Source: Mariprofundus sp.
GTDB taxonomy: Bacteria > Pseudomonadota > Zetaproteobacteria > Mariprofundales > Mariprofundaceae
NCBI GenBank assembly: GCA_027019785.1
Contig: JALUWF010000268.1
Coordinates: forward strand, 1-38,357
Length of the DNA: 38,357 nt
Direction: 5' to 3'
Below are positions 11,180 through 22,991 of this stretch, in pieces. Position numbers and translations under genes: made by a program. Numbering within the stretch: position 1 is the first letter of the stretch; each line of letters begins with the position of its first letter. The notes beneath the pieces are model-generated. The model was not told the origin of the DNA. It did not search any database and saw only the letters and a list, made by a program, of their open reading frames with translations.

Positions 11180-12529
11180 TCACACTGACTCACATCGCTC
11201 TCTGATCGCCTCGCTTAGTGGCTCGCCAATATCCAGCATCAACCCTTCATCTTCCGCTTCAATCATAATACGCAGTTTTGGTTCGGTACCCGACATACGC
11301 ACATTGATGCGGCCACTTTCGCCCAGGCGCGTTGCCGCTTCATCAATCATCAACTGTAGCTGTGTATCGGCCAAAACATCCTTGCGTTCCTGCATCACAA
11401 TATTCCACAGCTTCTGGGGAAACAGCGTCATCTCCGAAGCCATCTCGGAGACCGGTCGGTTCTGCACGCGCATGGCGGAGAGCAGCTGAATCCCGGTCAT
11501 CAAACCATCGCCTGTCGTGTTGTGATCCAGCAGAATCATATGGCCGGACTGCTCGCCGCCGATGTTGCAACCTTTATCGCGCATCATTTCCAGCACATAG
11601 CGATCGCCCACTGCAGCACGGTGCATGGTTAGCCCCAGACCACCCAAATAACGTTCGAGCCCCATGTTGCTCATCAGCGTGGTGACAACACCGTTGCCTC
11701 TTAAATGGCCGGAGGCGTGCGCATGCTCGGCCAGAATCGCAATCACGCGGTCGCCATCAACAATACGACCATTGGCATCGCAGGCAATCAAACGATCTGC
11801 ATCACCATCCAGCGCCAGCCCAATATCCGCACCCGACTCCACCACGCGTCGCGTCATGGATTCAGGATAGGTCGAACCACATTCATGATTAATATTATAA
11901 CCATCCGGCTTGTTATGCATGCTGATCACGTCACAACCCAGTTCGCGCAGCATGCGCGGCGCCACATCATAAGCCGCACCATTGGCGCAATCGATCACCA
12001 CCTTAAAACCATCCAGCCGCATATCACGAGGCAACGATCCCTTCAGGAACTCGATATAACGTCCGCGCGCATCATCGATGCGAATCGCTTTACCAACCCC
12101 GAGAGCTGGCGGCAACGGTGGCAGGGCATCGATACAGGCTTCGATTTCCATCTCGATTTCATCCGGCAATTTATACCCGTCCGCAGCAAAAAACTTGATG
12201 CCGTTATCACCGGCCGGATTGTGCGAAGCGGACAACATCACGCCGGCGTCAGCACGCAGGCTGCGGGTAAGATAAGCCACCGCCGGCGTCGGCACCGGCC
12301 CGACCAGCAGCACATTCATGCCCTGCGCCGTCAATCCGGCGCACAGTGCTGACTCGATCATGTAGCCGGACAGTCGCGTGTCCTTACCGATCAGCACATA
12401 CGGCTGATGCGACAGGTGGCGGGTTAATACATGGCCGGCAGCCCGCCCCAAAGTCAATGCGAATTCAGCAGTCATCGGACTTTGATTGACTGTACCGCGC
12501 ACACCATCCGTACCAAAATAACGTCGCAT
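11180..12529 (-). CDS. glmM: Phosphoglucosamine mutase GlmM
   Basis: 449-residue enzyme that interconverts glucosamine-6-phosphate and glucosamine-1-phosphate on the way to UDP-GlcNAc, feeding peptidoglycan and LPS. Visible motifs: FGTDGVRG at 5-12, the phosphoserine loop MLSASHNPAGDNGIKFF with Ser102 as the phosphorylated residue, the metal loop DGDADR (242-247), the sugar-binding GEQSGH, and the phosphate-binding RMSGTEPKLRIMIE near the C-terminus. Length matches the family. Its ATG shares one base with the cdaR stop, so it is translated with cdaA-cdaR. Last gene of the minus-strand operon; its 3' end faces pdxA across the repeat-rich gap. Confidence 0.97.
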   Translation of the reverse strand: MRRYFGTDGVRGTVNQSPMTAEFALTLGRAAGHVLTRHLSHQPYVLIGKDTRLSGYMIESALCAGLTAQGMNVLLVGPVPTPAVAYLTRSLRADAGVMLSASHNPAGDNGIKFFAADGYKLPDEIEMEIEACIDALPPLPPALGVGKAIRIDDARGRYIEFLKGSLPRDMRLDGFKVVIDCANGAAYDVAPRMLRELGCDVISMHNKPDGYNINHECGSTYPESMTRRVVESGADIGLALDGDADRLIACDANGRIVDGDRVIAILAEHAHASGHLRGNGVVTTLMSNMGLERYLGGLGLTMHRAAVGDRYVLEMMRDKGCNIGGEQSGHMILLDHNTTGDGLMTGIQLLSAMRVQNRPVSEMASEMTLFPQKLWNIVMQERKDVLADTQLQLMIDEAATRLGESGRINVRMSGTEPKLRIMIEAEDEGLMLDIGEPLSEAIRERCESV

Positions 12530-13221
12530 TATGTGCCTCCTTTTCCTGTCTTGTTATGCCGCTGTACGGATTTTCGCACCAATATCCCCTGTACAGCAAT
12601 ATCCACTTTTCCCTTGCTCAGCCTGATCGCTTTGCCGGATGGACTCTCAATTCCCGTTTTGACTTCAAACGGCCCCGCTTTCAAATCCGGTCGGATGGGG
12701 GTCGTGTCCACGGCACGCAGTGTCTCCAGCCAGACTTCAGGCCCTGTGAGCGCCACCTGCTGTGGCTTGATGCTGACCACACGCACCTGCCAACCTTCGG
12801 GCAATTCAAAATGCGCTTTCACGGGCACCGAACGAGTAGCCAGTTTGTCCACCTGCAGCTCAAGCCGATCGGGCTGAACCTTCTCAATATGCAGCCCCAC
12901 CGGCAACGATACCGACGACAATTGCGGCGCCCGCTCAACCACCCCCGGCGTGGTCAGATCAGAAGCATTGATCGGCACAGTCAAATCCTGCTGGTTCAGA
13001 TCTTTCAATCGCGTCTGCAGCCCGTTGATAGTGATGCGCACATGATCCGGCAGATCATTGACGATCACCATATCTGCCGGCAACCCCTGTACCTGTATCG
13101 GAACATCCATACTGACGGAACCTTCACCCTGACCATGCACCTGCAACCACATGGCAATGGCAATCACAACCGCCCAGAATTGCAGATTATAGCGCCGGAA
13201 CAGATCCATGCTGCGCTGCAT
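12529..13221 (-). CDS. cdaR: CdaR-like YbbR-domain protein
   Basis: 230 residues: one N-terminal membrane anchor (LQFWAVVIAIAMWLQV, about 14-29) and an extracytoplasmic part made of YbbR-type beta repeats, for example DVPIQVQGLPADMVIVNDLP, DLTVPINASDLTTPGV and RSVPVKAHFELPEGW. In Firmicutes CdaR binds and tunes the diadenylate cyclase CdaA, and the gene sits directly after cdaA and before glmM, exactly as here. The start is supported by AAGGAG 7 bases upstream inside the cdaA 3' end; the genes overlap by one base at each junction. Only about two YbbR repeats are visible, fewer than in Bacillus (four), so regulatory detail may differ. Confidence 0.82.
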   Translation of the reverse strand: MQRSMDLFRRYNLQFWAVVIAIAMWLQVHGQGEGSVSMDVPIQVQGLPADMVIVNDLPDHVRITINGLQTRLKDLNQQDLTVPINASDLTTPGVVERAPQLSSVSLPVGLHIEKVQPDRLELQVDKLATRSVPVKAHFELPEGWQVRVVSIKPQQVALTGPEVWLETLRAVDTTPIRPDLKAGPFEVKTGIESPSGKAIRLSKGKVDIAVQGILVRKSVQRHNKTGKGGT

Positions 13222-14021
13222 CAGCCATCTCCTTCTGTAATTGAATCACCTGGTTGAGGTGTCCGTATCATAGCATTCAGACGCTTAGCCAACGCCTGAT
13301 GCAATGCCCGACTACTCATGACTGCGCCCATCTGTCCCTCTTCGACCAGGTGTACTTCGCCGCTCTCCTCGGATACAACGATCACCAGCGCATCCGTTTC
13401 TTCAGTTAATCCGACCGCAGCCCGATGACGCGTGCCGTAACTGCCAGCTACTGCATTGGCCTGCGCCAGTGGCAGCAACACGCGTGCGGCCACAATTCTG
13501 CCTCCGCGTTCATCGGAATCGATCACCACAGCCCCATCATGCATAGGCGCATCCGTACAGAACAATGCCTGTATCAGATCAGGACGCAGGGGCGCATCCA
13601 TCTCCACGCCCGAGTCAAACAGATGTCTGAGGCCGGTATCTCGTTCAATCACCAACAACCCGCCCCAGCCGCGATGCACCAGTGAAAAGGCCGACTCGAC
13701 CAGCTCCGCCAGCATGACCTCCCGATGATCGGGGCCGCTGGACAGAGGATTGATCGCCACGCGCATCAGGGCGCGACGAATCTCCTGCTGGAACAGTACG
13801 ACCAGAATCACCATGAAAGCCGAGAAGAAATGGCCGAACATCCACTCGACAGTGAACAGACCGAACACGCGTGCCAACTGGTAGGTCACCACCACAATCG
13901 CAATGCCAATGAGCATCTGCACTGCACGCGTACCGCGAATCAGGCGCAGGAAAAAATAGACGACGATGGCGACGACCGTGATATCGACCACATCGGTGAT
14001 GCCGAATTGCCAGTTAGCCAT
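13221..14021 (-). CDS. cdaA: Diadenylate cyclase CdaA (DAC domain, c-di-AMP synthase)
   Basis: 266-residue membrane enzyme that makes cyclic di-AMP from two ATP. Three hydrophobic helices (about 9-27, 34-50, 57-77) precede the DAC domain, which carries the signature PMHDGAVVID (DGA at 162-164) and GTRHRAAVGL (RHR at 198-200), the residues that bind ATP and metal. Length and layout match CdaA/DacA. The gene order cdaA-cdaR-glmM is the one known from Firmicutes, where CdaA, CdaR and GlmM interact physically. c-di-AMP is less usual in Gram-negatives and shows that this organism probably uses it for osmotic or wall control. No c-di-AMP phosphodiesterase (GdpP, PgpH) is present in this window. Confidence 0.95.
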   Translation of the reverse strand: MANWQFGITDVVDITVVAIVVYFFLRLIRGTRAVQMLIGIAIVVVTYQLARVFGLFTVEWMFGHFFSAFMVILVVLFQQEIRRALMRVAINPLSSGPDHREVMLAELVESAFSLVHRGWGGLLVIERDTGLRHLFDSGVEMDAPLRPDLIQALFCTDAPMHDGAVVIDSDERGGRIVAARVLLPLAQANAVAGSYGTRHRAAVGLTEETDALVIVVSEESGEVHLVEEGQMGAVMSSRALHQALAKRLNAMIRTPQPGDSITEGDG

Positions 14022-14197: not shown

Positions 14198-15088
14198 TTA
14201 CTCTGTGTCCTCTGTGGTGAAATGCCTTTGACTCTCCGCCCTGTAAAGCTCCTCTGCGCTCAGAGCAGACGCCACCCGGATCGCCCGCTTTTGTTGAGCC
14301 ACATCGTGCACGCGCAATATATCGGCGCCACAGGCGATGCCCATGGCTCCGGCAGCGCCGGTTTCCAGTTCACGGTCAGCCACCGGTGCGCCGGTCAGTT
14401 GTCCTAAAAATGATTTACGTGACAGGCCGAGTAACAGCGGCATATCGAAAGTGGTTTTGAAATGCGACGTCGCACGAATCAGTGCCAGGTTGTCCTCTAA
14501 TCGTTTACCGAAACCGATACCGGGATCGAGGATGATCGAGGATGCATGTATGCCTGCCTGCAAGCAGGCCTCTATACGCTGCGTAAAAAAATCGCTGATC
14601 TCCTGAACCACATCGTTGTATACAGGCTGTCGCTGCATGGTTTCGGGATTGCCCTGCATATGCATCAGACAGACATCCGCCCCGCTTTGCGCTGCGGCTT
14701 GCAATGATCCGGCGTCAAATCTCAGTGCGCTGACATCATTGATGATACTTGCGCCGAATTCAATGGCCTGACACATGACTGCCGCTTTCATCGTATCCAC
14801 AGATACCGTGCAACCATGCGCTGCCAGCGCCCGAATCACCGGCATCACCCGTTCCATCTCTTCCTTCTCCGATACGGGTACGGCGCCGGGTCGGGTGGAT
14901 TCACCACCCACGTCAATAATATTCGCTCCCTGCTCGTACATTTCAATACCGTGCGCAATGGCGGCATCGACATTGAAAAAATCACCGCCGTCCGAAAACG
15001 AATCGGGAGTGCAATTCAGCACCCCCATAATCCATACATCGCCCCGTTGACCATCTTCAGTCAGCGGGCGCTGCCAGCACGATGGCAT
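14198..15088 (-). CDS. folP: Dihydropteroate synthase FolP
   Basis: 296-residue TIM-barrel enzyme that joins p-aminobenzoate to the pterin pyrophosphate in folate synthesis; the sulfonamide target. Motifs: MGVLNCTPDSFSDGG (21-35), IIDVGGESTRPGA, SVDTMKAAV, IINDVSAL, LMHMQGNPETMQ, ILDPGIGFGK, LLGLSRKSF and LRVHDVA. The last eight residues, HFTTEDTE, and the stop codon context are encoded by a CTCTGTG-type intergenic repeat (14201-14218), so the natural C-terminus has been replaced or extended by the repeat. The ATG overlaps the ftsH stop by one base. Confidence 0.96.
   Translation of the reverse strand: MPSCWQRPLTEDGQRGDVWIMGVLNCTPDSFSDGGDFFNVDAAIAHGIEMYEQGANIIDVGGESTRPGAVPVSEKEEMERVMPVIRALAAHGCTVSVDTMKAAVMCQAIEFGASIINDVSALRFDAGSLQAAAQSGADVCLMHMQGNPETMQRQPVYNDVVQEISDFFTQRIEACLQAGIHASSIILDPGIGFGKRLEDNLALIRATSHFKTTFDMPLLLGLSRKSFLGQLTGAPVADRELETGAAGAMGIACGADILRVHDVAQQKRAIRVASALSAEELYRAESQRHFTTEDTE
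14201..14218. repeat. CTCTGTG-type repeat inside the folP 3' end
   Basis: CTCTGTGTCCTCTGTGGT (plus-strand reading) is one arm of the same repeat found as an inverted pair at 23020-23074. It overlaps the folP coding end. Upstream on the plus strand is GGGGACGGACTTATTTT, a short sequence that I recognise as recurring in many bacterial intergenic regions. The rest of 14022-14197 is AT-rich with no gene visible. Confidence 0.65.
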
Positions 15089-17019
15089 CAGTTGGCCTTG
15101 GCCTCGTCCCCGGATGGTTTATCCGCTTTCGTTTCACTGCCGACATCAACCTTCTCGGATGGCTCTTCCGGCGGCGTGCCGGTTGAAGATGGCCGCTCTT
15201 CATATTCCTTGATCAACAGGGGCTCCTTGCCCTCCATGACGCGATCAATATCGGTCGTATCCAGTGTTTCATACTTGATCAGCGCCTTGGCCAGCAGATG
15301 CAACTGATCCATGTGTTTCTTCAGAATCTGCCTGGCACGATCATAATTATCCTCGATGAGTTTACGCACCACAGCATCAATCTTGCGCGCCGTCTCTTCC
15401 GATATATTGGTCTGACGGGTAATTTCACGACCCAGGAAGGGTTCGTGTTCACGTTCGCCATACACCATCGGCCCCAACTCATCCGACATACCCCACTGGG
15501 TCACCATATTGCGCGCTAACTGGGTGGCGCGCTCGAAATCGTTGGATGCGCCGGTGGTCATCTGACCCAGCACCAGCTCCTCGCCCAGTCGACCGCCCAT
15601 CATAATGGAAATCTGGTCACGTAGATATTCCTTGTCATGATTAAACCGGTCTTCCTCCGGCATCTGCATGGTAATACCAAGCGCCTGTCCACGTGGAATA
15701 ATACTCACCTTATGCACCGGATCGGCATGCTTCAGATGTTTGGCAACCAGGGTATGACCAGCCTCATGATACGCCGTCGTTTTCTTCTGTTCGTCGGAGA
15801 TAATCATGGAGCGCCGTTCCGTTCCCATCATCACCTTGTCCTTGGCCGTTTCAAAATCAGCCCGGGTAACTTTATCGCGATCATAGCGCGCCGCATTCAG
15901 CGCCGCCTCATTGACCAGGTTGGCCAGATCAGCGCCTGAAAAACCCGGCGTGCCGCACCCCAGTTCCTTGGCGTTCACATCGCTGGACAACGGTACTTTA
16001 CGCATATGCACTTTCAGAATCTGTTCGCGACCCAGCAAATCAGGGCGTGGCACCACCACCTGCCTGTCGAAACGACCGGGGCGTAACAGCGCCGGATCCA
16101 GCACATCGGGGCGGTTGGTGGCAGCCACCAGAATCACACCTTCATTGGACTCGAAACCATCCATCTCGACCAGCATCTGATTCAGCGTCTGTTCACGCTC
16201 ATCATTACCACCGCCAATACCTGCACCGCGATGACGCCCCATGGCATCGATTTCATCGACGAATATGATACATGGCGCATGCTTTTTGGCCTGCTCGAAC
16301 ATATCGCGCACACGCGATGCGCCGACGCCGACAAACATTTCCACAAAATCGGAGCCGGAAATAGAGAAGAACGGCACATCCGCTTCGCCGGCAATAGCGC
16401 GCGCCAGCAGCGTTTTACCTGTGCCTGGCGGGCCAACCAGTAGTACGCCCTTGGGAATTTTGCCACCGAGCCGGGTGAATTTGGATGGCTCACGCAAAAA
16501 CTCAATCACTTCGGTCACTTCCTGCTTGGCCTCATCACAGCCAGCCACATCTTCAAAGGTAGCGCGTGCATTATCCTGATTGAGCAGTTTGGCCTTGCTC
16601 TTGCCAAAGCCCATAGCGCCGCCCTTGCCACCGCCCTGCATCTGACGCATAAAGAACACCCATACGCCAATCAGCAACAGCATCGGAAACCAGGAGATCA
16701 GCACCGACAGAAAAAACGGTACCTCCTCCTTCTCCTTGACGTTAACCACCACGTGCTGATCCAACAAACGCTTGGTCAGGGTTGGATCATTCATTGGCAC
16801 CGTGACATCAAAATTCTTTAACTCGCCGGACGAATTCCGCAGCTGCCCGATCACTTCGTTATCCTTGATCGTCGCTGTTTCCACCATGCCCTGATCCACT
16901 TTCTCGATAAAAGTGGAGTAGGCCATTCTATTCGCCTTGGTCATCGGCGTGGAAAACATGTTGAACAGGCTCATCATGGTCAGGCCGATGACGACCCACA
17001 ACAGTATGTTCTTACCCAT
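15088..17019 (-). CDS. ftsH: ATP-dependent zinc metalloprotease FtsH
   Basis: 643-residue inner-membrane AAA+ protease. Two membrane segments (about 4-22 and 103-123) flank a periplasmic part; then the AAA domain with Walker A GPPGTGKT (196-203), Walker B IIFVDEID, the pore motif FVGVGA and second region of homology [21 protein letters not shown]; then the protease domain with zinc site HEAGH (418-422). It degrades misfolded membrane proteins and, in enterobacteria, LpxC and sigma-32. The C-terminal tail (after about 610) is acidic and low-complexity. A GAGGATAG ribosome-site-like sequence precedes the ATG. A 120-base gap separates it from tilS, so it may have its own promoter; no clear one was read. 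Confidence 0.97.
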
Positions 17020-17139: not shown

Positions 17140-18162
17140 CTATTTATCCCGACCGAAAGCTGACGTGACGGGCCGCAGATGCAAGTCATCCCGCTCTCTG
17201 TAGAGTCGGCAGCGTGACAAATCAAGTCCGCCACGCCCACTTTTTTTGGTCCACGTCTCAACCATGATAATATGCCGGCGACCCGGTGTCACACCGTCGC
17301 CCAGTAGTTGAAGCATGCATTTTTGCAATAATCGAGCCCGTGCCGATGGTAAAGCATCGACCCAGACCGCCCACGGCAGGCAGAGCCCGGTTTCGGTCCG
17401 GCTTAGTTGCTGCATCAACACATCAACAACCGCATCAAGACGCGCCGCCACGCATTCGGCCTGCCGCTGCCACCTGAGAAACAGTTCGTCCGGGGCGACA
17501 CCCGCCTTCGATATGGCGGGGAACAGTCGATGCCGAATCCGATTGCGCCAGATACGCAGATCACGGTTGCTCGGATCATCCAACCAGTCGATGCCTGCTT
17601 GCGCCATAGTCTGCCGTATGGTGCTTGCAGGAAGATGCAACAACGGACGCACAATGCGCAGATGTCCGATCCGACGTTCGCGCCACATGCCCCGACATCC
17701 CACTGAGCCAGCCCCCTGCAACAGGCGCATGCAGACGGTCTCGGCCTGATCGTCCCGGTGATGGCCCAGGCAGAGCGTCGCCAACTGATATTGCCGACTC
17801 CATACTTGAAATTGCGCATACCGCCCGGTCCGCGCCTCCGCCTCACTGGCATGTGAAGCGACCGCCAAACGGGCTGCGACAAAAGCAATACCCCATGCCT
17901 CTGCCTGTTCGGCCAGTTGCTCTGCCTCCCGCGCCGAAGTGTCGCGCCAGCCGTGATCAACATGCCATGCCATAACCTTGCGCCCGCTGCATACAAGCGC
18001 CAGCAACAGCGCAGTCGAATCTGCCCCGCCAGACCAGCCAACAGCGACGCTATCCGGCAAATCTGGCATATCCGCTGCGCTCAGCCACGTCTTGCACGTA
18101 TCGCTGAACGTGTCATTCAACGCATCCCCGAATGCATCAATGCGTCGAAACGTACGCATCAT
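17140..18162 (-). CDS. tilS: tRNA(Ile)-lysidine synthase TilS
   Basis: 340-residue PP-loop ATPase that converts C34 of the AUA-reading tRNA-Ile to lysidine. The PP-loop is VGWSGGADSTALL (SGGADS at 44-49); further family marks are HVDHGWR, LGHHRDDQAET, RPLL and WLDDPSNRD followed by RNRIRH. E. coli TilS is longer (432); here the C-terminal domain is shortened to a stub. Its ATG overlaps the stop of the upstream 750-residue protein by 4 bases, and ftsH follows 120 bases later, as in several proteobacteria where tilS or ftsH cluster with folP. Confidence 0.93.
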   Translation of the reverse strand: MMRTFRRIDAFGDALNDTFSDTCKTWLSAADMPDLPDSVAVGWSGGADSTALLLALVCSGRKVMAWHVDHGWRDTSAREAEQLAEQAEAWGIAFVAARLAVASHASEAEARTGRYAQFQVWSRQYQLATLCLGHHRDDQAETVCMRLLQGAGSVGCRGMWRERRIGHLRIVRPLLHLPASTIRQTMAQAGIDWLDDPSNRDLRIWRNRIRHRLFPAISKAGVAPDELFLRWQRQAECVAARLDAVVDVLMQQLSRTETGLCLPWAVWVDALPSARARLLQKCMLQLLGDGVTPGRRHIIMVETWTKKSGRGGLDLSRCRLYRERDDLHLRPVTSAFGRDK

Positions 18163-20411
18163 GCCCAGCGCATCAGGCCGCGTTCAATGATGCAGGCGGT
18201 CGCCGGAGCATCTGCATCCATCAATTCAAAGATATCCGTATCCACACCGGCCAGATTTGTCTTGCCCGCCTTGATCAGCAACCACGGCGCTTCATCGTCA
18301 TAGCCAAAGCGCTGGATCACCAGCAACTCCAGCCCGCCGGCAGGCATCTGATAACCGTCCAGCACCCCAGCAATTTCCGCTTGCTGCGGTCGCACGCTGC
18401 GGATGGAGGCTTTATTGCCCAACACTGCAGTCAATTCGGTGAGGGCGGATTCAGTCAGGGCGAAACCGCTATTATATAGCATCTGCACACGGTTGCCTGC
18501 CCCTGTGTTGACAGTTTTGATATGCACCTGACCCAACGGAGCCACGCCTTTGCCTCCATCGCTCGACATCACCTGCTTCGCATTATGGTCACGGCGTACG
18601 CCAGCGCTGACTTGCGGTATAGCCAGTGAAAAGGCGATGCGCTGTAGCCCCAATTGCGGGTGATTCAATTCTGAAAATGACCATTCGCCGGTCATATCCA
18701 TACACATCGACAACGCCGGCATGCCAACATCTTCAATACATGCATCATGTTGTTCCAGCGCCAGCACCAGCCATTGGCGCAATCGTCGGCGCAGATCAAT
18801 ACCCGCTTGCGCCAGTGCCAGCACCGAGCCGCGCAAGACGCATCCGCAGGCCGAACAGTGATCGAGAAACAGGTATTCACGTTCATCCACCAAGGTTAGC
18901 AGACCCGGTAAAAATGTTTTGGCCATAAAATCAGCCGCATGACCGCCATACAAGGCATGCATTCTGGCCAGATATTCGGACCACTCGATATTCAGGCAGC
19001 CCTGACGCTGCGACAACACCTGACCGCTATGCAGCGCTCTGGTCACATTCGACTGAATTAGCACCAGTTCCCCGTCTTTCCATGCTTTCTCCAGCACTGC
19101 ATCCGATTCACCGCCAACACCTTTAGCGACATGGCCGCTGCGTAAACCACCAGCACTACGTAAGCCGCTACTGCGTAGTCCTGAAATCTGACCTGCTGTA
19201 CCGCTTGCCTGTTTTTTGTGAGCCAATTGCTCTTTGCGATCCAGCCATGATGTTTCCGAACGCCGCCTTGCCACCTCGACTTTGACATCTTCATCAAACA
19301 CCCGAAATGCCATCAGGGTGATATTATCCTGTAACCACGGTTCACCCACCGCCTTGACAGCCCTGCCGCCTGCCATGCTCGCCAGCAACCATTTGGCGAC
19401 CGGCGTGGCATGGTTGGCATTCAGATTTTCCATGGCCGCTTCATCGGGCTGAAGCTGACCGGCCAGCAACTGATCAAGCCGCTTGGCATGCAGGACATAA
19501 CGCATCCAGCCACCGAAATTGCTGTCCATGCCAAGCTTCCACAATGACAGTCGCGCCCATGTCCGCCGTTGCAGATGCGCCCCCAGCTTATCTCTGGCCA
19601 GCAGTTGCAACATGCCGCCTTCATTGTGCATGCCCACTTTGGCGCGCAATTGACGCATACGCGGCACAATCTCCGGCTCCAGTCCGTAGGCGCGGATTAT
19701 GCGGCTGTCATCGCCGAGCAGCGATGCATCCGGCTGATACTGTAAAAATGCCATGGGGGTGGCGGGCAACATCATCGACTCATAGGTGGCGATGCGCGTT
19801 ACCTCAACCACGCCTTCCAGATAGCGTTTGAGAAAATGTTGCAACGCCCATACATAGAGTCCGCCAACCACGCACAGCATCACATGGCTGGTCTGGTCGG
19901 CATGTTCATCAGACAATCCGGCAATCGCACGGCGAATCAGTTTTAACAACAGCACATTGATAGCAGGCACCCAGGGCGCAGCATCCGCCTGATCCTGTTT
20001 CCAGCCCTGCTCCCACATCACTTCGCAAACATTCAACAGCGCCGTCGCGCCCTTTGGGTCGGCGCACCAGTGGTGTAGCAGATCGCGTGACAAATGTGGA
20101 TTCTGCTTGCGCAGATAGGCCACCATGCGCCGCACCTTCTCATCCATATGCGGCAAGGTATGGGCCGAAACTTTCTCCCCCTGCACCACATAGCGCACTG
20201 CATAGGCCTGTAATTTACGCAACGCAGTCGCAATGGTCCGCTCCACATCCGGCTGCACTGCATAGGGAATATACTCACGCGCCTGTGCGCCCGGCACGCG
20301 AATCGGTAAGCGCTGAACATCCACAGCACAGCGGTCGGCTGGCTGCTCCTGCCGATTCAGAATGGGCCGGTACCAGCTCCAGCGGAATGAAAAATAATCG
20401 GGCGAAATCAT
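18159..20411 (-). CDS. Large protein of unknown function (750 aa)
   Basis: I do not recognise this protein. It appears soluble: no signal peptide and no clear membrane helix. The N-terminal third is helical and rich in Trp and Arg (DEKVRRMVAYLRKQN, GGLYVWALQHFLKRYLEG). The middle has MAGGRAVKAVGEPWLQDNIT followed by LMAFRVFDED. At 410-426 is a Ser/Gly/Arg repeat linker (SGLRSSGLRSAGGLRSG) that looks like a hinge between two halves. The C-terminal half contains FLDHCSACGCVLRG, CMDMTGEWSF and a NSGFALTESALTEL stretch; its layout loosely recalls a degenerate nucleotide-cyclase fold, but the catalytic residues are not evident, so I do not assign it. It heads the tilS-ftsH-folP-cdaA-cdaR-glmM string and is divergent from znuA across 105 bases. 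Confidence 0.75.
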   Translation of the reverse strand: MISPDYFSFRWSWYRPILNRQEQPADRCAVDVQRLPIRVPGAQAREYIPYAVQPDVERTIATALRKLQAYAVRYVVQGEKVSAHTLPHMDEKVRRMVAYLRKQNPHLSRDLLHHWCADPKGATALLNVCEVMWEQGWKQDQADAAPWVPAINVLLLKLIRRAIAGLSDEHADQTSHVMLCVVGGLYVWALQHFLKRYLEGVVEVTRIATYESMMLPATPMAFLQYQPDASLLGDDSRIIRAYGLEPEIVPRMRQLRAKVGMHNEGGMLQLLARDKLGAHLQRRTWARLSLWKLGMDSNFGGWMRYVLHAKRLDQLLAGQLQPDEAAMENLNANHATPVAKWLLASMAGGRAVKAVGEPWLQDNITLMAFRVFDEDVKVEVARRRSETSWLDRKEQLAHKKQASGTAGQISGLRSSGLRSAGGLRSGHVAKGVGGESDAVLEKAWKDGELVLIQSNVTRALHSGQVLSQRQGCLNIEWSEYLARMHALYGGHAADFMAKTFLPGLLTLVDEREYLFLDHCSACGCVLRGSVLALAQAGIDLRRRLRQWLVLALEQHDACIEDVGMPALSMCMDMTGEWSFSELNHPQLGLQRIAFSLAIPQVSAGVRRDHNAKQVMSSDGGKGVAPLGQVHIKTVNTGAGNRVQMLYNSGFALTESALTELTAVLGNKASIRSVRPQQAEIAGVLDGYQMPAGGLELLVIQRFGYDDEAPWLLIKAGKTNLAGVDTDIFELMDADAPATACIIERGLMRWA

Positions 20412-20516
20412 AATATTGGCAGTGTCCTCATAAGCAGGCTAATTATCAAGGGGCAACAGGAAATAAACGACAATCAAGTTTCGTGCCACTCTGCCAAGTG
20501 GTAGCATGCCGGCCTT

Positions 20517-21329
20517 ATGCACCAAACTTTCATACTCCGACAACTGCTGGCGACGGCAATCATATTGCTCATGCCAATGACTGCTGGGGCGGCTGAAATT
20601 GCTGTCACGCTGCCGCCACTGGCCGGTCTGGTGACCATGCTGGATCAAAAAGCGGAGGTGACCTGCCTGCTGCCTGCCGGTGCCGATCCGCACCATTTTC
20701 AAATGTCCCCACGTAAAGTTGAAGCCCTGAACCACAGCGAATTGCTCATTCGCGCCGGTGCTGATGATGCCGGCTGGCCCCTGCTCCCAGACCATGCCCG
20801 AACACTGAAGCTGTGGCCCCGCACGGATCACGGCTGGCTTAATCCGTCATCCGTGCGCGATGCACTGCCATTGATCGCCAAGGCACTGATCCGGCTGCAA
20901 CCAGAAAGACGGGACGCCATTGATATAGCACTGATTCATGCCCTGCAACAGACGCGTGATATAGAACAGGCATGGCGCAAAGCCCTGTCCGGTCTCGCCA
21001 CTGACGGCGTCCTGATGCAGCATCCATCCTGGCGACGCCTGATGCAGCATATGGGCATTGCCGTTCTGGCGGTACTGGAATCCACCCATCACGGGCACGA
21101 AATGGGGCCGCACAAGCTGGAATATGCCCTGTCCACGCTCAACCAGCATCCCGATGCCTGGCTGCTGGACGATGCCACCCATAGCAATCAGGCGCTCGAC
21201 TGGCTGGCCCGACACGCCGCCCGCGCACCACACCGCGTCACTCTCGATGCTCTGGGTAGTTGCGGTCTCTCATGGAGCGAACTGATGCAGATGAATATCG
21301 CTCGCATCAAAGGCCGGTCGCAGCCATGA
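20517..21329 (+). CDS. Zinc/manganese-type ABC transporter periplasmic binding protein (ZnuA/TroA family)
   Basis: 270 residues with a signal peptide cut near TAGAAEIAV, and the cluster A-I fold of metal-binding lipoproteins and periplasmic proteins: VTLPPLAGLVTML, then LLPAGADPHHFQMSPR in which His59 or His60 is a metal ligand, SELLIRAG, a central helix, and the second-lobe motif VLESTHHGHEMGPHKLEYAL with several histidines, then DAWLLDDATHSNQALDWLA. Most likely it binds Zn(II), possibly Mn(II); sequence alone does not separate them. No lipobox is seen. Its TGA overlaps the ATG of the ATPase gene, which makes an operon with the ATPase and permease. No clear Zur operator was read in the 105-base gap upstream. 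Confidence 0.87.
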   Translation: MHQTFILRQLLATAIILLMPMTAGAAEIAVTLPPLAGLVTMLDQKAEVTCLLPAGADPHHFQMSPRKVEALNHSELLIRAGADDAGWPLLPDHARTLKLWPRTDHGWLNPSSVRDALPLIAKALIRLQPERRDAIDIALIHALQQTRDIEQAWRKALSGLATDGVLMQHPSWRRLMQHMGIAVLAVLESTHHGHEMGPHKLEYALSTLNQHPDAWLLDDATHSNQALDWLARHAARAPHRVTLDALGSCGLSWSELMQMNIARIKGRSQP

Positions 21330-22159
21330 GCGTTCCTGTTCTCCAGGTCAGTCATCTCAGTTTCGGACCGCTTCACAAACCGATTCTCGACGGCATTAAC
21401 CTGAAACTGGAGGCCGGCCACTTCCTCGGCATTGTCGGCCCCAACGGCGCCGGCAAAAGCACGTTGCTCAATATGATGGCCGGGCTGACGCCCCCTTCCA
21501 GCGGTCATATTGATCTGTTCGGTCGTTGCCTGACGCGCTTCAGCCGCCACAAACTGCTCAGTCAGATCGGTTTTTTACATCAGTTGCACGATGCTACGCC
21601 AAGGCTGCCTATGCGTGTGCAGGATGTGGTGGCAATGGGTTTAGCCGATTACGCCACGCCATGGCGGCGTAACCGTCACCTTCAGGAGATCGTGGATACG
21701 TTAAAATTGCTCGATATGGATCATCTGGCCGATGCCGATTTCCGCCAGCTCTCCGGCGGCCAGCGTCAACGCGTCCGCCTGGCCCGGGCGCTGGTCCGTC
21801 AACCGAAATTACTGTTGCTCGATGAGCCGTCGGCAGCGCTGGACAGCGTACGACAGGAGAAACTGTTTCAGCTGCTACGGCGATTATGTGATGACGCCGG
21901 CATGAGCGTGATTATGGTTGAGCACGATATTGCCGCCATCAGTTCGCATGTCGATTCCGTCGCTTGCCTGAACCGGCAGATTCATTATCACGCCATGAAA
22001 GGCGAAGACATCCCCGAAGATGCCTGGCGCGCCATGTATGGCGATCATATCCACATCGTAGCGCACGACGCCCACTGCATCGGCTGCGCCCCGGGCGATT
22101 TGAATCAAGAACATCAGACGCAGATGAACACAGATAAAATAACTGGGATACAGCGGTAG
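21326..22159 (+). CDS. Metal ABC transporter ATP-binding protein (ZnuC-like)
   Basis: 277 residues from ATG 21326; the ORF-track start at 21260 adds 22 residues that overlap the binding-protein gene and is rejected. Walker A GPNGAGKST, Q-loop IGFLHQLHD, signature LSGGQRQR, Walker B LLLLDEPSAALD and switch His in VEHDIAA are all intact. Two oddities occur at the C-terminus: HIVAHDAHCIGC, a His/Cys cluster suited to metal binding, and a final tail HQTQMNTDK that is encoded by an ATCTGTG-type intergenic repeat (22116-22139). It pairs with the permease that starts 4 bases downstream. Confidence 0.9.
   Translation: MSVPVLQVSHLSFGPLHKPILDGINLKLEAGHFLGIVGPNGAGKSTLLNMMAGLTPPSSGHIDLFGRCLTRFSRHKLLSQIGFLHQLHDATPRLPMRVQDVVAMGLADYATPWRRNRHLQEIVDTLKLLDMDHLADADFRQLSGGQRQRVRLARALVRQPKLLLLDEPSAALDSVRQEKLFQLLRRLCDDAGMSVIMVEHDIAAISSHVDSVACLNRQIHYHAMKGEDIPEDAWRAMYGDHIHIVAHDAHCIGCAPGDLNQEHQTQMNTDKITGIQR
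22116..22139. repeat. ATCTGTG-type repeat inside the 3' end of the ABC ATPase gene
   Basis: GACGCAGATGAACACAGATA (plus strand) has the same two-half layout as the CTTTGCG, CTCTGTG and ATTCGTG repeats in this window. It is translated as HQTQMNTDK near the ATPase C-terminus. Confidence 0.55.
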
Positions 22160-22163
22160 TAGT

Positions 22164-22991
22164 ATGACAAGCATGATCTCTGAATTTCTGGCTAGCCCGG
22201 TGATGCGCGAGGCGTTGCTGCCGGCGCTGTTGGTGGCTTTTGTGACGGCCTCCATGTCGGTGATGGTGATGGCGCACCGCTTATCATTTCTGACCGTCGG
22301 TGTATCGCATGCGTCACTGGCCGGGTTGGGCCTGGCTGTGACATTGTCACTGCCGCTGCTGCCGACAGCGACTGTATTCTCGGTCTTGATCGCACTGCTG
22401 TTGGCCCTGATGCCGAGGAAGAAGGGTATCTCCGAAGATGCTGGAACAGGCATGTTGTTTGCCGGCAGTATGGCGCTGGGCGTGCTGCTGATCTCTTCGA
22501 CCAATAGCGCCCGGGTCGATCTGTTTGGATTGCTATTTGGTAATATCCTGACAATTTCGCCGGTCGATCTGCACTGGCTCTACCTGATGTCCAGCCTGAT
22601 TCCGCTATTGTTTGTGCTGGCGGCGCGAGCCTGGTGGAGTATCGCCTTCGATGCGGTGACGGCGGATGCATCCGGTTTGCCCGTATCCGCGCTGCGCCTG
22701 CTGCTCTACGGTCTGGTTGGCCTGACCGTGATTCTGTGTGTCAAACTGGCCGGCATTGTTTTAACCGCCGGGCTGATGATTCTGCCGGCTGCCTGCGCCT
22801 GGTTCTGGGGCCGCTCGTTGTTCAGCCTGTGGCTGCTTTCGTTGCTTTTTTCTGTGACAGGTGCCATGGCCGGACTGTTCTTCTCCTATATCTACGAATG
22901 GCCTTCCGGAGCAACGGTGGTGCTGTCTCTGTGCACGCTGTTCATCCTCAGTTGGGGGCTAAACTGGGCAAAATCACGTCTAACCGCCTAA
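22164..22991 (+). CDS. Metal ABC transporter permease (ZnuB/ABC-3 family)
   Basis: 275-residue polytopic membrane protein with about eight hydrophobic helices. Family features: MREALLPALLVAFVTASMSV at the start, VGVSHASLAGLGLAV (the conserved SHA..G block), GMLFAGSMALGVLLIS, GLLFGNILTISPVDL and KLAGIVLTAGLMILPAACA. These are typical ABC-3 permease segments that form the channel for Zn or Mn import. Length is normal. It directly follows the ATPase gene and ends just before an inverted CTCTGTG-type repeat that may act as a shared 3' end with the convergent permease gene. Confidence 0.9.
   Translation: MTSMISEFLASPVMREALLPALLVAFVTASMSVMVMAHRLSFLTVGVSHASLAGLGLAVTLSLPLLPTATVFSVLIALLLALMPRKKGISEDAGTGMLFAGSMALGVLLISSTNSARVDLFGLLFGNILTISPVDLHWLYLMSSLIPLLFVLAARAWWSIAFDAVTADASGLPVSALRLLLYGLVGLTVILCVKLAGIVLTAGLMILPAACAWFWGRSLFSLWLLSLLFSVTGAMAGLFFSYIYEWPSGATVVLSLCTLFILSWGLNWAKSRLTA

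Follow-up and report, generated by a model that had tools for sequence, protein, structure and literature searches.

What kind of protein heads the tilS-to-glmM operon of Mariprofundus sp., and does it take part in the same process as the genes beside it, as was suggested in an earlier note on this locus? The gene in question (hereafter X) lies in a window of 38,357 nucleotides, the whole stretch of DNA that was analysed, where it forms a 750-residue ORF on the minus strand (18159-20411), with its ATG at 20411 and its stop codon at 18161-18159. This stop shares 4 bp with the start of tilS (ATG at 18162). X is a genuine gene of 750 codons and not a chance ORF, since it has full-length homologues that are 31-86% identical and evolves under purifying selection (pairwise dN/dS of 0.05-0.12 over the whole protein). 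According to Pfam matches, it is followed on the same strand by tilS (PP-loop family, 17140-18162), ftsH (15088-17019), folP (pterin-binding, dihydropteroate synthase, 14198-15088), cdaA (a diadenylate cyclase with DAC and CdaA_N domains, 13221-14021), ybbR/cdaR (12529-13221) and glmM (11180-12529), with which X is probably co-transcribed and translationally coupled. Upstream, the zinc uptake genes znuA, znuC and znuB are divergently oriented (20517-22991, plus strand). The cdaA-ybbR(cdaR)-glmM segment (11180-14021, minus strand) displays the canonical order that is best known from Firmicutes, here in a proteobacterium.

The earlier note recognised no family in X, and this stands after database searches. 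X has zero matches in Pfam, NCBIfam, PHROG and PADLOC, 25 homologues scanned one by one gave only scattered matches at chance level, profiles of the whole protein or of either half matched nothing among PDB sequences, and neither half has a paralogue in the genome from which the window comes. Full-length homologues were found in 64 of 78 Zetaproteobacteria genomes, representing 12 of 18 genera, and in none of ~320 other Pseudomonadota (an evenly drawn sample), while scanning the species representatives of GTDB for peptide patterns yielded 57 loci, each of them labelled as Zetaproteobacteria groups or unresolved proteobacteria. The closest named homologues are from Mariprofundus, and others are from Ghiorsea and Mariprofundaceae. 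Within the genomes sampled, X is a protein specific to the iron-oxidising Zetaproteobacteria. A viral, plasmid or defence origin was rejected because the searches gave zero matches (no homologue was found on plasmids or in viruses), and the idea of a stalk-specific gene was set aside since X is present in Ghiorsea and across the family. In the Zetaproteobacteria stalk pan-genome paper, tilS and ftsH go unmentioned (PMC8250860), and term searches found no description of X either there or in the paper on the genome of M. ferrooxydans PV-1 (PMC3179512). Flagellin shows no clean pattern of co-occurrence with X, genomes that lack X being found both with and without it.

The tight linkage to tilS seen in the window proves to be general. 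In each of the 51 loci whose sequence extends far enough, tilS is directly downstream of X, the 4-bp overlap is present in about half of the 23 loci examined for it, the whole operon is linked in most, and a divergent znuA is upstream in 49 of 52 loci. Such linkage argues for X acting in the process of its operon partners (c-di-AMP/cell wall precursors or FtsH-mediated proteolysis), for example by regulating CdaA, GlmM or FtsH. However, genomes lacking X argue against it. In nine of these, znuA and tilS are adjacent with a short spacer, and in five of the nine the genes znuABC / tilS-ftsH-folP-cdaA-ybbR-glmM are all in order with X alone missing (one contig ends within glmM), which indicates that the tilS-glmM neighbours are independent of X. 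Co-occurrence of X with cdaA-ybbR-glmM is therefore not obligatory, as these five genomes keep the operon through cdaA. Moreover, a DAC domain is encoded in 71 of 78 Zetaproteobacteria genomes irrespective of X, and tilS adjoins znuA in the outgroup family too, where ftsH and cdaA were not detected, so that the linkage of X may be positional. The role in the wall/c-di-AMP process proposed in the earlier note is thus not borne out, and an involvement of X in the process of its operon partners at large seems unlikely. X is instead a self-contained insertion or loss at the znuA-tilS site, and a tree of the flanking proteins places its absences at no fewer than four separate points, besides the outgroup family. 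Across the class, the clean absences between znuA and tilS (loci L164-L167, L168, L169 and L170-L172) are independent of one another. One genome from the same genus has a disrupted znu-tilS junction, and X was not found there. Its tilS adjoins the gene of a different ABC ATPase, and its znuABC genes are on another contig.

What does X itself look like? The earlier note had divided it into two halves, and with 51-sequence alignments AlphaFold2 yields two confidently predicted domains, a compact all-helical N-terminal domain (residues 1-400, 19212-20411, pLDDT 92.6, pTM 0.91) and an alpha/beta C-terminal domain (residues 428-750, 18162-19130, pLDDT 88.6, pTM 0.84). The SGLRSSGLRSAGGLRSG linker that was described between the halves is indeed there (residues 410-426, 19134-19184) but is no family-wide feature, since it varies in length and, in the alignment, its SGLRS repeat is limited to close relatives. 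The query protein has no strongly hydrophobic, transmembrane-grade stretch (maximum KD19 of 1.5), from which X is taken to be soluble and cytosolic.

The N-terminal 400 residues are the most constrained part of X. Residues 1-400 have a pairwise dN/dS of 0.03-0.06, against about 0.1-0.2 in residues 428-750, and 34 positions are invariant among 51 sequences in the N-terminal half (including H113, H114, W115, R283, R287, D313, D375, E379 and R383) versus 12 in the C-terminal half. The separate fold searches proposed in the earlier note were informative for the C-terminal half (see below) but not for residues 1-400, for which no match at E<=0.001 was found either in the PDB (best E 0.052, TM 0.15) or among the viral structures of BFVD (best E 0.1). 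As modelled, and compared with the PDB and viral structures, this domain is possibly a new fold.

The N-terminal domain also contains near-invariant cysteines and histidines (C28, H84, H113, H114 and C116), which, considering the position of znuA, would be compatible with X being a zinc-responsive or zinc-binding protein functionally tied to the divergent znuABC. This is very improbable, as genomes lacking X keep znuABC in the same place and no Zur box, or palindrome resembling one, was seen in the X-znuA spacers on inspection by eye. A role shared with either zinc uptake or the c-di-AMP/wall genes has linkage as its basis, and genomes without X weaken the case for it. In the spacer itself (20412-20516), as in those of related loci, X is preceded by a leader that is conserved (TTGATTAA ... 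GGAAACT ... ATG). A GGCATGCTAGCA-like block is conserved as well, and could be a znuA promoter element on the opposite strand.

For the C-terminal half, in which a cyclase fold had been loosely suspected, the fold search supported that suspicion. When residues 428-750 were compared with the PDB using Foldseek, the best 50 matches were all class III adenylyl/guanylyl cyclases, 18 of them at E<=1e-3 with a probability of about 1, the best being 5o5l_A (E 1.5e-5, probability 1.00). The predicted order of elements (beta1-alpha(long)-beta2-beta3-alpha3-beta4-beta5-alpha4-...-beta6-alpha-beta7-beta8) fits the class III fold, and both fold and order are shared with the catalytic domains of a bacterial adenylyl cyclase (soluble domain, 5o5l), CyaC (1wc3), Rv1900c (1ybt) and human sGC beta (3uvj). 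On this model, the likeness is nevertheless remote, with moderate target-normalised TM-scores of about 0.5-0.6 and an identity of about 10%. X is set apart from these enzymes by its unrelated N-terminal domain and by insertions, some between alpha4 and beta6, others close to the C-terminus. At the sequence level the relationship is undetectable: Guanylate_cyc (PF00211) has zero matches in 26 members of the X family, and an attempt to prove homology with hhalign was negative (probability of about 0.1%), even though the 30 cyclase domains compared came from the same or related genomes. As a control, PF00211 detects other, separate cyclase genes in 39 of 41 same and related genomes. Three of these genomes encode a distinct class III cyclase type, which scores about 215 bits with PF00211, far above others in the genus. 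The diadenylate cyclase CdaA shares an operon with X but is otherwise unrelated, since PF02457 matches the cdaA product and misses X.

Could this domain make cyclic nucleotides? In a register that was inferred from the order of elements rather than by superposition, the canonical catalytic residues (the metal-binding Asp pair and NxxxR) are not conserved in X. The beta2-beta3 turn, where a metal Asp is expected, has an acid in none of 51 homologues and reads S-A-S-G, and in place of NxxxR there is Q(x)3G/A (Q600 in 50/51, G/A at +4). The canonical cyclases of the same genomes retain the metal acids and the NxxxR residues. It is around this turn, in the predicted beta2-beta3 hairpin, that the CSACGC highlighted in the earlier note is found (residues 519-524, 18840-18857). 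It is, however, a local sequence rather than a motif, since Cys519 occurs in 20 and Cys522 in only one of the 51 homologues (Gly523 in 51, Cys524 in 48), the family pattern being S-A-S-G-C-L-L-R-G. The variation of these cysteines led us to reject a metal-cluster motif. Lacking a recognisable cyclase active site, the domain is most likely a pseudo-cyclase, i.e. under this register it has probably lost the canonical catalytic residues. Several acids are nonetheless kept in this half, including D517 (D/E in 51/51), D/E479 (92%), E729 (51/51) and, on beta1, E476 (86%), and conservation at 479, 517 and 729 leaves room for an unusual metal site or activity. Together with the class III fold, they are what would speak for an active, divergent nucleotidyl cyclase whose metal site is non-canonical (E476/D479 with D517, for instance). 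Such an enzyme is decidedly unlikely, given the acid-free turn, the unconserved NxxxR position, the replacement of E476 by A, Q, V or S in 7/51 homologues, and the fact that the C-terminal half is the less constrained part of X. Degenerate subunits are familiar among class III cyclases, in which the non-catalytic half of heterodimeric enzymes is a pseudo-cyclase. Like X, these have the cyclase fold but not the full catalytic set. Known pseudo-cyclases retain a recognisable cyclase sequence, though, which X does not, and X has no identified catalytic partner.

The reading that we favour, although with no more than even confidence, is that X is a cytosolic, lineage-specific two-domain regulatory or scaffold protein, which combines a degenerate cyclase domain with a helical domain. 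The N-terminal helical domain would probably carry the specific interaction or sensing function, and the C-terminal domain, instead of synthesising cyclic nucleotides, would be a regulatory module that dimerises or binds a nucleotide or other ligand. It counts against this reading that no function co-occurring with X was identified. A more specific version of it, which is tentative and somewhat unlikely, is that residues 1-400 are a new fold that arose or survived only in Zetaproteobacteria, fused to a cyclase domain repurposed for sensing nucleotides without synthesising them, which would make X a class-specific signalling receptor.

In conclusion, X is a conserved gene outside known families that is present in most marine iron oxidisers of this class (the 64 genomes above), and its product, as modelled, associates a helical domain unlike solved structures with a cyclase fold apparently devoid of catalysis. 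If the fold of the N-terminal domain is new, it would be a clear target for structural work, and the independent absences of X offer natural comparisons for finding its role. Should X prove to be a pseudo-enzyme that senses nucleotides, the nucleotide signalling of bacteria would gain a branch specific to this lineage.
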